This document shows positions 32,549 to 37,944 of a DNA stretch of 38,357 nt, piece after piece. Location of the stretch: the NCBI GenBank assembly GCA_013334575.1, contig JAAXXG010000001.1, positions 105,280 to 143,636 of the forward strand, given 5' to 3'. The notes below the pieces were generated by a model. The model had not been told where the DNA came from and made no database searches. It worked only from the letters and a program-made list of their open reading frames with translations. This DNA comes from Candidatus Moraniibacteriota bacterium (GTDB taxonomy: Bacteria; Patescibacteriota; Minisyncoccia; Moranbacterales; UBA1568). A program made the translations under genes and the position numbers. Position 1 is the stretch's first letter, and each line of letters starts with the position of its first letter.

Positions 32549-34057
32549 ATGATCGAGCCGAAAGATTTCACGAAAAGCGGAGATTTCCGCAGCGAGATGA
32601 AGACCGACCGGATGAAGGTTCCGGTCGTCTTTCATGTGCAGGACGAGCTCCTGCCGTCCGAATCGACACTCGAACAGCTCGAAAGCGTCGCGAGCAACGA
32701 CGGCCTCTTCCGTCATATCGCCGCCATGGCCGACGTCCATTCCAAGCCCGGACGCAAGAACGCCACCGGCACGACCATCGCCTCCGGGAAGCTCATCCTC
32801 CCGCAGGTCAACGACACCGATCCCGCCTGCGGCATGCGGCTCGTCGCGACGAACCTGACCGAAGACAACCTCTCGCAGGAAGAGATCGACCGCCTCTTCT
32901 CAGCGCTCGAGGGCCGGGTGCCGACCAAGGCCTATACCGGAACGATCCTCCCCTACCGCGTCATCGTCGACATCTGCCGAAAGGGTGTCCGCGCCGCCGT
33001 CGAACATCTCGGAATCGAGACGAAGTTCGAGGAGGAACATTCCCTCGACCGCGGGAACTTCTTCGGCGGGGAAGTGACCCGGAAGAAGATCTACGAGGTC
33101 ATCCCCCGGCTGTTCCTCTTCTTCGCGAAGTTCCGTTCCGGCATCCTCGGTGCGGCCGGAAACCACTTCCTCGACCTCATGAAGGTCACCGACCTCATGG
33201 ACAAGGAGAAGGCCAAACGGCTCGGCCTCCGGAAAGGACAGTACGTCTTCATGATCCACTGCGGGTCCGGCATCCTCGGCCAGTACACGATGTACATGTA
33301 TACGGCCAAGAAGCGCGAACATCGGTCGCAGGCCTTCATGGCCTGGCTCGGACGGATGACCTTCCTCACGCCGCGCAGGCATGTCGTCGACGCGATCGCG
33401 AAAAAGATCCGCGACTTCGATTTCGGCGCCAAGAAAGAGCTCTTCACCTTCGACGGCGACGGCGAGGACGGACGGATGTACATGGAAGCGCGCAACGCCT
33501 GCTCGAACTTCGCGCATGCCAACCGCGCCATCATCGCCCACAACGTCTCCGAGACGATCAAGGAGGTCCTCGGCCGCGACCCGGGCTTCGAGCTCATCTA
33601 CGACATGCCGCACATTCTCGTGTCCAAGGAGAATCATTACGGTTCGGATGTCTGGGTCCACCGAAACGGCACCAGCCGCGCCTACGGCCCCTCGCGCATG
33701 GCCGATCATCCTGATTTCCGCGAAACCGGCGAGCCCGCCTTCATCCCGACCTCCATGTCGACCGAAGGATATCTCTGTGTCGGACTCGACAGCAACGAAT
33801 CGACATTCTTCTCCTGCAACCACGGCGCCGGGAAACCGAAGGCGGCCGCCGAGTCGGTCGTCCCGCAGAACCACGACGAGCTCCATGCCAAACTCGCGTC
33901 ACGCGGCGTAAAGCTCTACAACGGCCGTTCGTCGCGGGTGATCGAACAGGACAGCGCCCACTACAAGAACGCCGACGCGGTCATCGAGAGCGTCCGTCAA
34001 AACGGCATCGTCAAGCCCGTCGCGAAGCTTCAGCCCGTCGCGGTCATCATGTACTGA
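32549..34057 (+). CDS. RtcB family RNA ligase, divergent
   Basis: 'MADVHSKPGRKNATGTTIAS', 'DPACGMRL', 'AAGNHFLDL', 'MIHCGSGILG', 'YDMPHILV', 'WVHRNGTSRAYGP', 'FIPTSMSTEGYL', 'CNHGAGKPKAAAE': all expected metal/GMP-linking His/Asp/Cys positions present. Confidence 0.9.
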   Translation: MIEPKDFTKSGDFRSEMKTDRMKVPVVFHVQDELLPSESTLEQLESVASNDGLFRHIAAMADVHSKPGRKNATGTTIASGKLILPQVNDTDPACGMRLVATNLTEDNLSQEEIDRLFSALEGRVPTKAYTGTILPYRVIVDICRKGVRAAVEHLGIETKFEEEHSLDRGNFFGGEVTRKKIYEVIPRLFLFFAKFRSGILGAAGNHFLDLMKVTDLMDKEKAKRLGLRKGQYVFMIHCGSGILGQYTMYMYTAKKREHRSQAFMAWLGRMTFLTPRRHVVDAIAKKIRDFDFGAKKELFTFDGDGEDGRMYMEARNACSNFAHANRAIIAHNVSETIKEVLGRDPGFELIYDMPHILVSKENHYGSDVWVHRNGTSRAYGPSRMADHPDFRETGEPAFIPTSMSTEGYLCVGLDSNESTFFSCNHGAGKPKAAAESVVPQNHDELHAKLASRGVKLYNGRSSRVIEQDSAHYKNADAVIESVRQNGIVKPVAKLQPVAVIMY

Positions 34058-35450
34058 CCTCGTCCGACATCATGCCGAACGAAACAGCAAGAAGTAGGAG
34101 TCCGGTCACGGAGTCCCACAGGAAGTGATCGAGGAAGAGACTCGGGAGAAAGACGAGGAACATCGCCAAGGCGGCGGTGTTCTTTCTTCTTGCGGCCGTC
34201 ACGAGGCTTCCGATAACGAGCGCGAAAAGGAATAAGAGACCCGGGATGCCGAGATCGGCAAGCACGAGGAGCGGCACGTCATGCGCCGGCTGGACATCCC
34301 AGACCGGACGTTCCGGATCGAGTCGGATGAGCGCTGCGGTCGAATTCCACATTCCTGCACCGACAATCGGTGATTCGCCGATGACGCGCCATGCATCCCG
34401 ATAGGTCGTCTTGCGGTCGGCAACGGAGCCTTCCTGAGCGACGACAGCCCCGTCGAAACGCGGAAAAACGACGCCACGCAATATCCAGGAGAACATCGCC
34501 ATCGAAACGACAACGGCGACAATTCCGGCAAAGGCATACTTCCCTGTCATCCCGGGCTTGACCCGGGATCCAGGAATTTCAACCGACTTCCCGAGGGCGT
34601 CCATGCGATCAGCGGAATGGAAATGGAATGCGTCTTGAACAGCCCGCCAGAAAAGAATGGTTGTGCCCACCACGAACCCGGCCCATGCCGATCGGGAAAA
34701 GGAAACGAGAAGACCGAGTGAAAGGACGGGAAGCGCCGCGATGAGAACGGCCCGATGAAACATATGCCTTCGAGCGTCTACCTTGTCCCGCATCCCGACG
34801 ATCCGATGAACGACAAGGAAAAGACCGACGGCGACGAACAGTCCGTACACGTTCGGGTGCGGAAAGGTTCCGTAGGCCCGAAACCACCGGCCGGATCCGT
34901 TCTTAAGCACCGATGTCCCGGCCGCCCAGGCCGGATGTGACGCCGTCCCGAGAAGTGCCGAAGAAAACGTCTCCTGCGTCACGAATTGACCGATACCGAC
35001 GAGTGCCTGCAGGACCGCGCCAAGGATAAGGATATCCCGTATCATTCCTCCTTTTCCTCTCCGGGTCAGGTCGCGTCCCATCACGAACGCGTCCGCCGCT
35101 AAGAGAATCGTCAGCGCTCCATAAAGGGCCAATGCACGGTCCTCTGCCCAGGCAGGCGAAAGAAACGCCCACAGCACGAAAAGTATCAACGCTACTCGCG
35201 GAAGGGGCTCCGATATAAGGCCTCGGAACGGATCTCGGATTCCTTCGGCCTTCGCCTGTCGAGACCTCCCGATTGCGGCGATCATGACCGCCGTAGCCAA
35301 CAACAGCGCGGAAGCGAAAATCCCGATCGTCCCGTACTGCCATTTCGCACCGCCGATCATCGGCTCACGCAACAAATACACCGTCTGAAGCGGAAGCAGG
35401 AGGACGAACAAGAAAAAGAGACGGTCGGAATACTTCGTAAGACGATCCAT
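34047..35450 (-). CDS. O-antigen ligase/polymerase-like membrane protein
   Basis: Multi-TM; 'IGESPIVGAGMWNSTAALIRLDPERPVWDVQPAHDVPLLVLADLGIPGLLFLFALV'; convergent 11-nt overlap with rtcB. Confidence 0.88.
   Translation of the reverse strand: MDRLTKYSDRLFFLFVLLLPLQTVYLLREPMIGGAKWQYGTIGIFASALLLATAVMIAAIGRSRQAKAEGIRDPFRGLISEPLPRVALILFVLWAFLSPAWAEDRALALYGALTILLAADAFVMGRDLTRRGKGGMIRDILILGAVLQALVGIGQFVTQETFSSALLGTASHPAWAAGTSVLKNGSGRWFRAYGTFPHPNVYGLFVAVGLFLVVHRIVGMRDKVDARRHMFHRAVLIAALPVLSLGLLVSFSRSAWAGFVVGTTILFWRAVQDAFHFHSADRMDALGKSVEIPGSRVKPGMTGKYAFAGIVAVVVSMAMFSWILRGVVFPRFDGAVVAQEGSVADRKTTYRDAWRVIGESPIVGAGMWNSTAALIRLDPERPVWDVQPAHDVPLLVLADLGIPGLLFLFALVIGSLVTAARRKNTAALAMFLVFLPSLFLDHFLWDSVTGLLLLAVSFGMMSDEVST
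34542..34580. repeat. Palindromic repeat element in frame within O-antigen ligase-like CDS
   Basis: ccctgtcATCCCGGG-cttga-CCCGGGATccaggaatttc; translated EIPGSRVKPGMTG. Confidence 0.75.
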
Positions 35451-35496
35451 GTATCGGTGGTAATCCGTTGCGCATTGTACCATTTTCTGATACTTT

Positions 35497-35515
35497 ACGG
35501 GTAGTTTTCACCCGT
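35497..35515. promoter_or_regulatory. Inverted repeat in divergent promoter region
   Basis: ACGGGT-agttttc-ACCCGT between the divergent O-antigen ligase-like gene and tmk-like gene; TACAAT (minus strand, 35474-35479) adjacent. Confidence 0.4.
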
Positions 35516-35570
35516 TTTAAGCGGATACCGCCGAAACGCCCGAGGATCCTCACGTCTGATTCCGAACGCC

Positions 35571-36215
35571 ATGCGACTCATCACTTTTTCCGGAACCGAC
35601 GGCTCGGGCAAATCGACCCAGCTCTCGCTCCTCCGCGAATACCTCGAGGGAAAGGGGTTCAGGGTCGCGTATTTCCATGCGCTCGAGTTCTCCGTCGGGA
35701 ATCGGATACTCCGCTTCCTGAAAGGAAAGAAAGATTTCCGACCCGGATCCGAACACGCGAACGTGACCGCGTCACCCTTTTCGGTGTTCCTGCGTACCTG
35801 CTCGCTCCTCGTCGATCTCATCGCATTCCCCTTCCATCGATGGCGGCTCGGTCGCCAGGGGTACGATATCCTCCTTTCTGACCGATATTTCTTCGATACG
35901 ATAGTAAACATCGAGTACCTTGCCGGACTCAGGCGGCATCGATGCGTACTTCTTCCGCTCGCGGAACCGCTCGTCGAACGACCGGATCTCTCGTTCTTCC
36001 TCGATATCGAACCGGAATCCGTCATGAGGCGCGATAACGCTCCGGAACAGGGTATCGAATACGTGCGCGCCAAGCGAGACCGCTTCCGAACGCATATTAC
36101 CGACTGGGGGTTCCGAGTACTCGATGCGGACCGTGAAAAAAACGATCTATCCGCTGAAATAAAGGACATTTCGGACCAAATTTTTCAGAGTATTGACAAA
36201 GGTACTGCAAGGTGA
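35571..36215 (+). CDS. Thymidylate kinase-like P-loop kinase
   Basis: 'LITFSGTDGSGKSTQLSLLREYLE', 'DILLSDRYFFDTIVN', 'LSFFLDIEPESVMRRD'. Confidence 0.85.
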   Translation: MRLITFSGTDGSGKSTQLSLLREYLEGKGFRVAYFHALEFSVGNRILRFLKGKKDFRPGSEHANVTASPFSVFLRTCSLLVDLIAFPFHRWRLGRQGYDILLSDRYFFDTIVNIEYLAGLRRHRCVLLPLAEPLVERPDLSFFLDIEPESVMRRDNAPEQGIEYVRAKRDRFRTHITDWGFRVLDADREKNDLSAEIKDISDQIFQSIDKGTAR

Positions 36216-36221
36216 TATAAT
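36193..36221 (+). promoter_or_regulatory. Perfect consensus sigma70 promoter with extended -10
   Basis: TTGACA (36193-36198) - 17 nt - TATAAT (36216-36221), preceded by TGA giving TGnTATAAT. Confidence 0.88.
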
Positions 36222-36227
36222 TAATAA

Positions 36228-36438
36228 ACAGTACCTTACTCCCTCTTCGACACGGTATCTCCTTGACCCACGAGGTCGGGAAATTATCCTTTGTCTGTCC
36301 CGTGGACGGAATCGGCGGACCCGCATACTATCAGCGGACCCTCCTACCCGATATCGCAAGATCCGGACCCGAAGATCGAAGAACGGAATCTCTCGAAAAA
36401 GTCGGCATGGCCAATAACCGTGTCGCTTTTTCTTTTTT
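36228..36438 (+). ncRNA. Candidate structured ncRNA / long leader
   Basis: Starts about 7 nt after the -10; CGACACGGT (36248-36256) pairs perfectly with ACCGTGTCG (36417-36425), immediately followed by CTTTTTCTTTTTT; no convincing ORF. Confidence 0.45.
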
Positions 36439-36474
36439 CCGGAAGCCCGTACAATGGTGGTAAACGATACGCGC

Positions 36475-37944
36475 ATGAAACATTTTTCCCGAGCCCTCGT
36501 CTGGCTCACGCTTTCGGAGGTCGTCTTCAATGTTGCCGGCTACGTCATCCATGCCGTTCTCGGCCGAATCCTCGGTCCGGCCGACTACGGCCGTTACGGT
36601 CTGGTCGTGAATCTGACCACGACGGTCATCATCCTGATCGGTAACGGCATCCCGACTGCGATGTCGAAATATCTCGCCGAGATATTCGAGACCCATCCGG
36701 AACGGATCATCGGCATCAAGCGCGCGACCATCGCGCTCCAGACGGCGATCATGTCCGGCGTGACGCTCGCGTTCTTCCTGCTCGCCCGGCCGATAGCGCT
36801 CGCCCTGGGCGACGATACCCTTACCCCGCTTTTCCGACTCTCTTCCCTCATCATACCCTCATTCGCGGCCGCATCGTTCTATTTCTACTACTTCACAGGG
36901 CTTCATTTCTTCCGCCTGCAGGCGATCCTCAAGACGGTCCGGGCGCTCGCCCGTATGGCGTTCATCATTTCGCTCGCCATGTTCTTCGGGGTCGGAGGAG
37001 CCGTTTCCGGCTACATCGTGGCACCGCTTTTCGTCTTCGGAATCGCCCTCGTCGCGGACCTTATCGCGACTCATCGGTACTTTCCCGCCGTATCGGAATC
37101 CGGATCGCCGAAGTTCCCGACGAAGCGGCTTATCGACTACGCCTGGCCGCTGACCCTCTTCCTTCTCTTCTATCAGCTCACCACTTCGCTCGACCTCTTC
37201 CTCGTGAAGGGACTGCTCCACGACGACCGCGCGACCGGCCTCTACAACGCCGTCATGACGGTCGGCAATATCCCCTACTACCTCTTCTACGCGCTCACCA
37301 TCATCCTGCTCCCCGCTATCTCCAAGACCTCGACCAACCGTGACGATACAGAGACACGGAAGCTCGTCAGCCGATCGCTGCGCCTCCTCGCGCTCGTCCT
37401 GTTCCCGGTGGTCACGCTGCTTTCCGCGTATGCCGGACCGGTCATCCGTCTCTTCTACGGCGGCGCATACGGCGATGCCGCGGCGTCCATGTCCGTCTTC
37501 TCCGTCGGAAACGGTTTCTTCACGATCTTCTACGTCCTGGCGTTCGCTATCGCCGGTGCCGACCGGGTCAGGATACCGATGTACGCCTCGGGAGCCGGAC
37601 TCGCCCTCTCCGCCCTCCTCAACACGCTTCTCATACCGCGATACGGCATCATAGGTTCGGCGCTCGCCACCTCGACCGTCATGATCTTTCTCGGAATCGG
37701 ACTCCTCGTCTTCACCGATCGCCATTTCAAGGTCCGCATCCCGGGGCGGCTCTGGACCGTCTCCGCGATTTCCTCGATCATCCTTATCCTCCTCTCCCGA
37801 CTCCTCCCGTCCGGCACGTATTCCTTCGTCGTCTCAGGAGTCTTCCTCTTCGCGCTTCACTTCGGCATCCTCGCCGCCGGAAAGGCGCTCGTTCCGGAGG
37901 ACATGGCCCCGTTCAGGAAATTCCTCCCTTCGAAGACGAAATAG
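36475..37944 (+). CDS. Polysaccharide flippase (Wzx/MATE-like, polysaccharide biosynthesis protein)
   Basis: About 12-14 TM helices; 'EVVFNVAGYVIHAVLGRILGPADYGRYGLVVNLTTTV', 'ARMAFIISLAMFFGVGGAVSGYIVAPL'. Start MKHFSRALVWL. Confidence 0.94.
   Translation: MKHFSRALVWLTLSEVVFNVAGYVIHAVLGRILGPADYGRYGLVVNLTTTVIILIGNGIPTAMSKYLAEIFETHPERIIGIKRATIALQTAIMSGVTLAFFLLARPIALALGDDTLTPLFRLSSLIIPSFAAASFYFYYFTGLHFFRLQAILKTVRALARMAFIISLAMFFGVGGAVSGYIVAPLFVFGIALVADLIATHRYFPAVSESGSPKFPTKRLIDYAWPLTLFLLFYQLTTSLDLFLVKGLLHDDRATGLYNAVMTVGNIPYYLFYALTIILLPAISKTSTNRDDTETRKLVSRSLRLLALVLFPVVTLLSAYAGPVIRLFYGGAYGDAAASMSVFSVGNGFFTIFYVLAFAIAGADRVRIPMYASGAGLALSALLNTLLIPRYGIIGSALATSTVMIFLGIGLLVFTDRHFKVRIPGRLWTVSAISSIILILLSRLLPSGTYSFVVSGVFLFALHFGILAAGKALVPEDMAPFRKFLPSKTK

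Follow-up and report, generated by a model that had tools for sequence, protein, structure and literature searches.

Premature termination of transcription is common in leaders, and for E. coli, PMC7815308 presents examples of premature 3' ends lying in 5' UTRs. Leaders of polysaccharide operons that depend on RfaH or LoaP (for LoaP, PMC12691694) have a terminator upstream of a polysaccharide gene. The locus described here shares this arrangement. In a 1.13-Mb, 99% complete genome of Candidatus Moranbacteria, a 238-nt spacer separates a thymidylate-kinase-like (tmk-like) gene from a flippase gene, and we see about an even chance that this spacer is a lineage-specific regulatory leader, or attenuator, of the flippase. 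The features to which the text refers, all situated in the stretch of 38,357 nt that was analysed as a whole (the window), are as follows.

35571-36215, plus strand: thymidylate-kinase-like gene (P-loop kinase), Pfam PF02223, E 2e-10
36193-36221, plus strand: extended -10 sigma70 promoter TTGACA-N17-TATAAT, 12 of 12 positions matching
36199-36237, no strand: perfect 9-bp palindrome, AAGGTACTG (36199-36207) and CAGTACCTT (36229-36237), a candidate operator
36228-36438, plus strand: predicted short transcript or flippase leader, its start placed from the promoter
36248-36425, plus strand: span of a claimed 9-bp closing stem, probably a chance repeat and not formed, judged by pairing probability and chance frequency
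36263-36463, plus strand: 66-aa ORF with a TTG start, unlikely to be a gene (no homologue, low coding score)
36395-36438, plus strand: intrinsic terminator GAAAAAG-U-CGGCAUGG / CCGUGUCG-CUUUUUC followed by U6, from folding and a pattern scan
36441-36445, plus strand: possible ribosome-binding site GGAAG for the ATG at 36454, read from the sequence
36454-37944, plus strand: polysaccharide flippase (Wzx/MurJ-like), PF01943, E 2e-26

The upstream kinase scores 31 bits against TIGR00041, whose cut-off is 83, and thus falls under the cut-off of the dTMP kinase equivalog. The closest named relatives of the flippase (71-75% identical) come from Moranbacteria metagenome bins, and comparison of family matches and starts shows that the start kept in relatives is the ATG at 36475. 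The string rtcB, tmk-like kinase, flippase is conserved in Moranbacteria, being found in the window (32549-36215) and in relatives (L053, L054, L055 and L057); RtcB was identified by search in the window, rtcB in the other genomes was recognised by eye. In the genome under study, an O-antigen-ligase-like gene (34047-35483, minus strand) sits between rtcB and the kinase.

Next to its relatives, the spacer stands out. In all five same-genus genomes compared, tmk and the flippase overlap or nearly touch (distances of -4, 9, 9, 15 and 54 nt), and the two genes are adjacent in most genomes of the family, often behind rtcB, so that in our genome an ancestral joint transcription of the two has probably been broken up. 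No DNA homologue of the spacer was found in 57 genomes, in its own genome, or in phages, plasmids and viral contigs (one exact pattern), the best matches being short and weak, about 14-40 nt. As far as the compared genomes show, the spacer is specific to its species lineage and, having no homologue anywhere searched, carries no sign of selection.

The promoter begins within the last codons of the tmk-like gene, as the first-pass annotation had recognised, and its sequence and coordinates proved exact: TTGACA at 36193-36198, a 17-nt spacer and TATAAT at 36216-36221, the extended -10 TG (36213-36214) being part of the tmk stop codon TGA, which thereby lies inside the promoter. It is the sole exact match in the window, in agreement with its earlier description as the best promoter there. 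Genome-wide, the same pattern has 12 exact copies; allowing up to one mismatch gives 58, as compared with 2 for a reversed control, and this enrichment indicates that the promoter class is real. In most of the 26 matches that were examined, an ORF of 61 aa or longer lies within about 70 nt; the one listed at +34 for the 36193 promoter is the non-coding TTG frame. Among these 26, the 36193 promoter alone has a perfect palindrome, which it combines with a terminator located at about +174.

The arms of this palindrome flank the -10 element and match each other best of all 26 promoters examined. Such an arrangement arises by chance in 0.3% of shuffles and in 0.55% of 53-nt window tiles, figures that belong to a palindrome spotted after the fact and missed in the first-pass annotation. 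As a putative operator for some repressor, the palindrome makes a stronger functional candidate than the closing stem discussed below. The idea that the operator is shared with another promoter of this genome, at C7:45288, where CAGTATCTT stands at the identical offset, was considered and rejected. The probable counterpart in G002 (L123) retains CAGTATCTT and not the upstream arm, so CAGTATCTT seems to be a feature of the C7:45288 leader, and its match to the 36193 promoter is probably a coincidence.

That other leader deserves mention in its own right. From C7:45288 onward (L080:1501-1716), a 5' leader of about 180 nt lies behind a perfect promoter and precedes a 231-aa protein without Pfam or NCBIfam match; it is similar in G002, the similarity including the hairpin GGTCATAGCC...GGCTATGACC and GTGGCCGGAAGAGGC. 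As a conserved regulatory RNA, it is a better candidate than the 238-nt spacer.

About 200 nt downstream of the 36193 promoter, the spacer contains the terminator. Its stem of 15 bp (7 + 8 pairs, 36395-36432), with a 7-nt loop and an A-tract/U-tract, folds at -18.8 kcal/mol (z -6.52, matched by none of 200 shuffles) and the hairpin has a pairing probability of 0.9996 in the ensemble. The full stem with both tracts had been overlooked in the first pass. From the U-tract it is 15 nt to the first flippase ATG (36454) and 36 nt to the conserved start at 36475, and GGAAG begins 2 nt past the terminator tail. With just 15 nt between U-tract and ATG, flippase transcripts begun upstream, whether at the new promoter or at tmk, must pass the terminator. 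This proximity also makes the regulatory leader the better of the two options originally offered, the other being a free-standing RNA. A discrete transcript of about 200 nt, running from the sigma70 promoter to the intrinsic terminator, is a reasonable prediction. By eye, a weak -10-like TACAAT can be read at 36450-36455; it could give the flippase a start of its own beyond the terminator, which would count against the leader reading.

Several more distant species also have an enlarged gap between tmk and the flippase. In G012, which belongs to another genus (L046, a gap of about 240 nt on the reverse strand of the locus), a promoter TTGACA-N17-TATCAT is followed by a structured, multibranched body of about 145 nt (z -3.06) and by an intrinsic terminator that lies about 35 nt upstream of the flippase. 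In G009 (L043, a gap of about 920 nt on the reverse strand of the locus), a DUF559-like ORF is followed by TTGACA-N17-TATTAT, a structured body of about 310 nt (z -2.43) and, ahead of the flippase, a terminator. Searches of 108 genomes of the order returned no homologue of either unit, and for lack of sequence similarity both were rejected as homologues of our spacer. DUF559-like ORFs, recognised by eye, occupy the junction in G011 and G014 as well as in G009; G020 (L031) and G027 (L045) share a similar long-palindrome element of about 160 nt, MITE-like in appearance, and G016 has a different palindrome. Rfam models returned only weak, sub-threshold microRNA matches on the enlarged-junction loci. 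These differing enlargements mark the junction as a recurrent insertion site, at which promoter-RNA-terminator units without shared sequence are present in three genera. It is tempting, albeit quite unlikely to be correct, to suppose that the junction in Moranbacteria repeatedly gains unrelated autonomous promoter-RNA-terminator cassettes (in our genome, G012 and G009) that would convert a co-transcribed envelope gene to an independently controlled, attenuated one, as convergent orphan leader RNAs, in our genome with a palindromic operator around the -10.

Computation supports the promoter sequence with the enrichment of its class, the terminator, the lineage-specific spacer and a body without unusual structure; that transcription takes place at all, that a part of it reads through, that some signal regulates it and that the palindrome is an operator, we infer. 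In the scheme we propose for the leader, RNA polymerase carrying the housekeeping sigma factor would start at about 36228 from the near-ideal promoter and transcribe about 200 nt, mostly stopping at the terminator. Polymerases that pass the terminator, along with those reading through from tmk, would transcribe the flippase. The spacer would in this way uncouple the flippase from tmk and throttle it by premature termination (attenuation), and the terminated RNA of about 200 nt would be a side product or could serve as an orphan sRNA. A repressor bound at the palindrome around the -10 may also gate initiation. Neither folding of the leader body nor Rfam revealed a recognisable antiterminator structure or a fold that would bind a ligand. 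A search for NusG-family proteins returned one gene per genus genome and no antiterminator paralogue of the RfaH/LoaP type, and antitermination of that type was rejected on this ground.

The first-pass annotation had proposed a closing stem directly followed by a U-tract, resembling that of 6S RNA or of another free-standing ncRNA. The inverted repeat (CGACACGGT/ACCGTGTCG, at 36248-36256 and 36417-36425) and the T-tract are indeed present, and an exact 9-bp repeat in a transcript of about 200 nt suits the proposal. The stem itself found no support: its pairing probability is 0.0003 and a fold forced to contain it is 5.8 kcal/mol worse than the best one, because the local terminator hairpin takes the same 3' arm, so that the long-range pairing, a rival for this arm as an antiterminator would be, is negligible at equilibrium. 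Chance alone yields a perfect 9-bp inverted repeat in 8.7% of dinucleotide shuffles, and 10.6% of 213-nt window tiles contain one. The whole RNA (36228-36438) has a fold z of -2.28, whereas its 5' 167 nt without the terminator (36228-36394) reach z -0.44, no better than shuffles. With the stem outcompeted, there is strong evidence for a terminator but none for an unusually structured ncRNA body. Rfam gave nothing relevant in the window at gathering or permissive (E 10) thresholds. The 6S model (RF00013) matched neither the window nor, at E <= 1, any of six genus genomes, having matched 6 of 14 control genomes; that this model recognised no 6S RNA elsewhere in the genus speaks for the proposal. 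Unlike a housekeeping RNA, the spacer is absent from all relatives searched, and no region homologous to the claimed stem turned up in any relative searched. A 6S-like or other closing-stem ncRNA is accordingly extremely improbable. The three CGGACCC copies, also reported previously, are where they were said to be, yet the motif is not above chance (13 in the window against 13.8 expected). Their clustering within 55 nt (36311-36370) is unusual, and two lie inside an 18-nt direct repeat (83% identical). It is also very improbable, though less so than a 6S-like RNA, that the spacer holds a short protein-coding gene, the TTG-initiated frame of 66 aa, which stays open through most of the spacer and overlaps the ATG at 36454. 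The coding score of the frame is -0.01, compared with 0.20 +/- 0.11 for 66-codon stretches of real genes, which leans against coding while staying compatible with it; the frame has a TTG start and no clear ribosome-binding site, and no protein-level conservation was found in 113 genomes, PDB, Pfam/NCBIfam or phages.

Two further explanations weigh more. A free-standing orphan sRNA gene of about 200 nt, inserted between tmk and the flippase and acting by base pairing in trans, with the flippase transcribed separately or by incidental read-through, is unlikely. It would account for a promoter-terminator unit of sRNA size, single-copy and lineage-specific like many sRNAs, and for the presence, at this junction in G012 and G009, of unrelated units with a similar layout, but it fits poorly with a body that is not unusually structured, a terminator so close to the flippase ATG, and the lack of conservation and of any Rfam match. 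We regard as about equally unlikely that the spacer is neutral intergenic DNA, a scar of insertion at an insertion-tolerant junction, where the terminator insulates tmk and the promoter re-supplies the flippase without any regulated step. The varied enlargements of the junction elsewhere (DUF559-like ORFs, palindromes) and a spacer devoid of homology and coding signal speak for it; however, a terminator that separates the new promoter from its target gene ill suits plain re-supply, and promoter and terminator are both unusually strong.

If the leader reading is right, the locus is a small example of a streamlined Patescibacteria genome gaining regulation, in which a 238-nt spacer splits a tightly packed gene pair and subjects an envelope-polysaccharide flippase to a promoter of its own and to attenuation by a terminator. 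The negative result matters too, as a striking long-range inverted repeat beside a U-tract turned out to involve the 3' arm of a local terminator.

Among known systems, 6S RNA (RF00013) shares with the spacer the length of about 200 nt and a possible long-range inverted repeat, whereas the spacer has no match to the model and its closing stem is not formed in the predicted ensemble. Leaders dependent on RfaH or LoaP differ in the antiterminator, a single NusG-family gene having been found in each genus genome. Free-standing sRNAs that have a promoter and a Rho-independent terminator of their own are of the same size and the same promoter-terminator anatomy, but the body of the spacer is not unusually structured, and the spacer adjoins a gene and has no homologue. 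Attenuation leaders differ from it in that no antiterminator, leader peptide, T-box or riboswitch fold was recognised in the spacer and no conservation was found. What it has in common with such leaders, as exemplified for E. coli in PMC7815308, is a strong promoter, a long 5' UTR and an intrinsic terminator right before the gene. The leader, itself without known relatives, would probably exert an ordinary kind of control.
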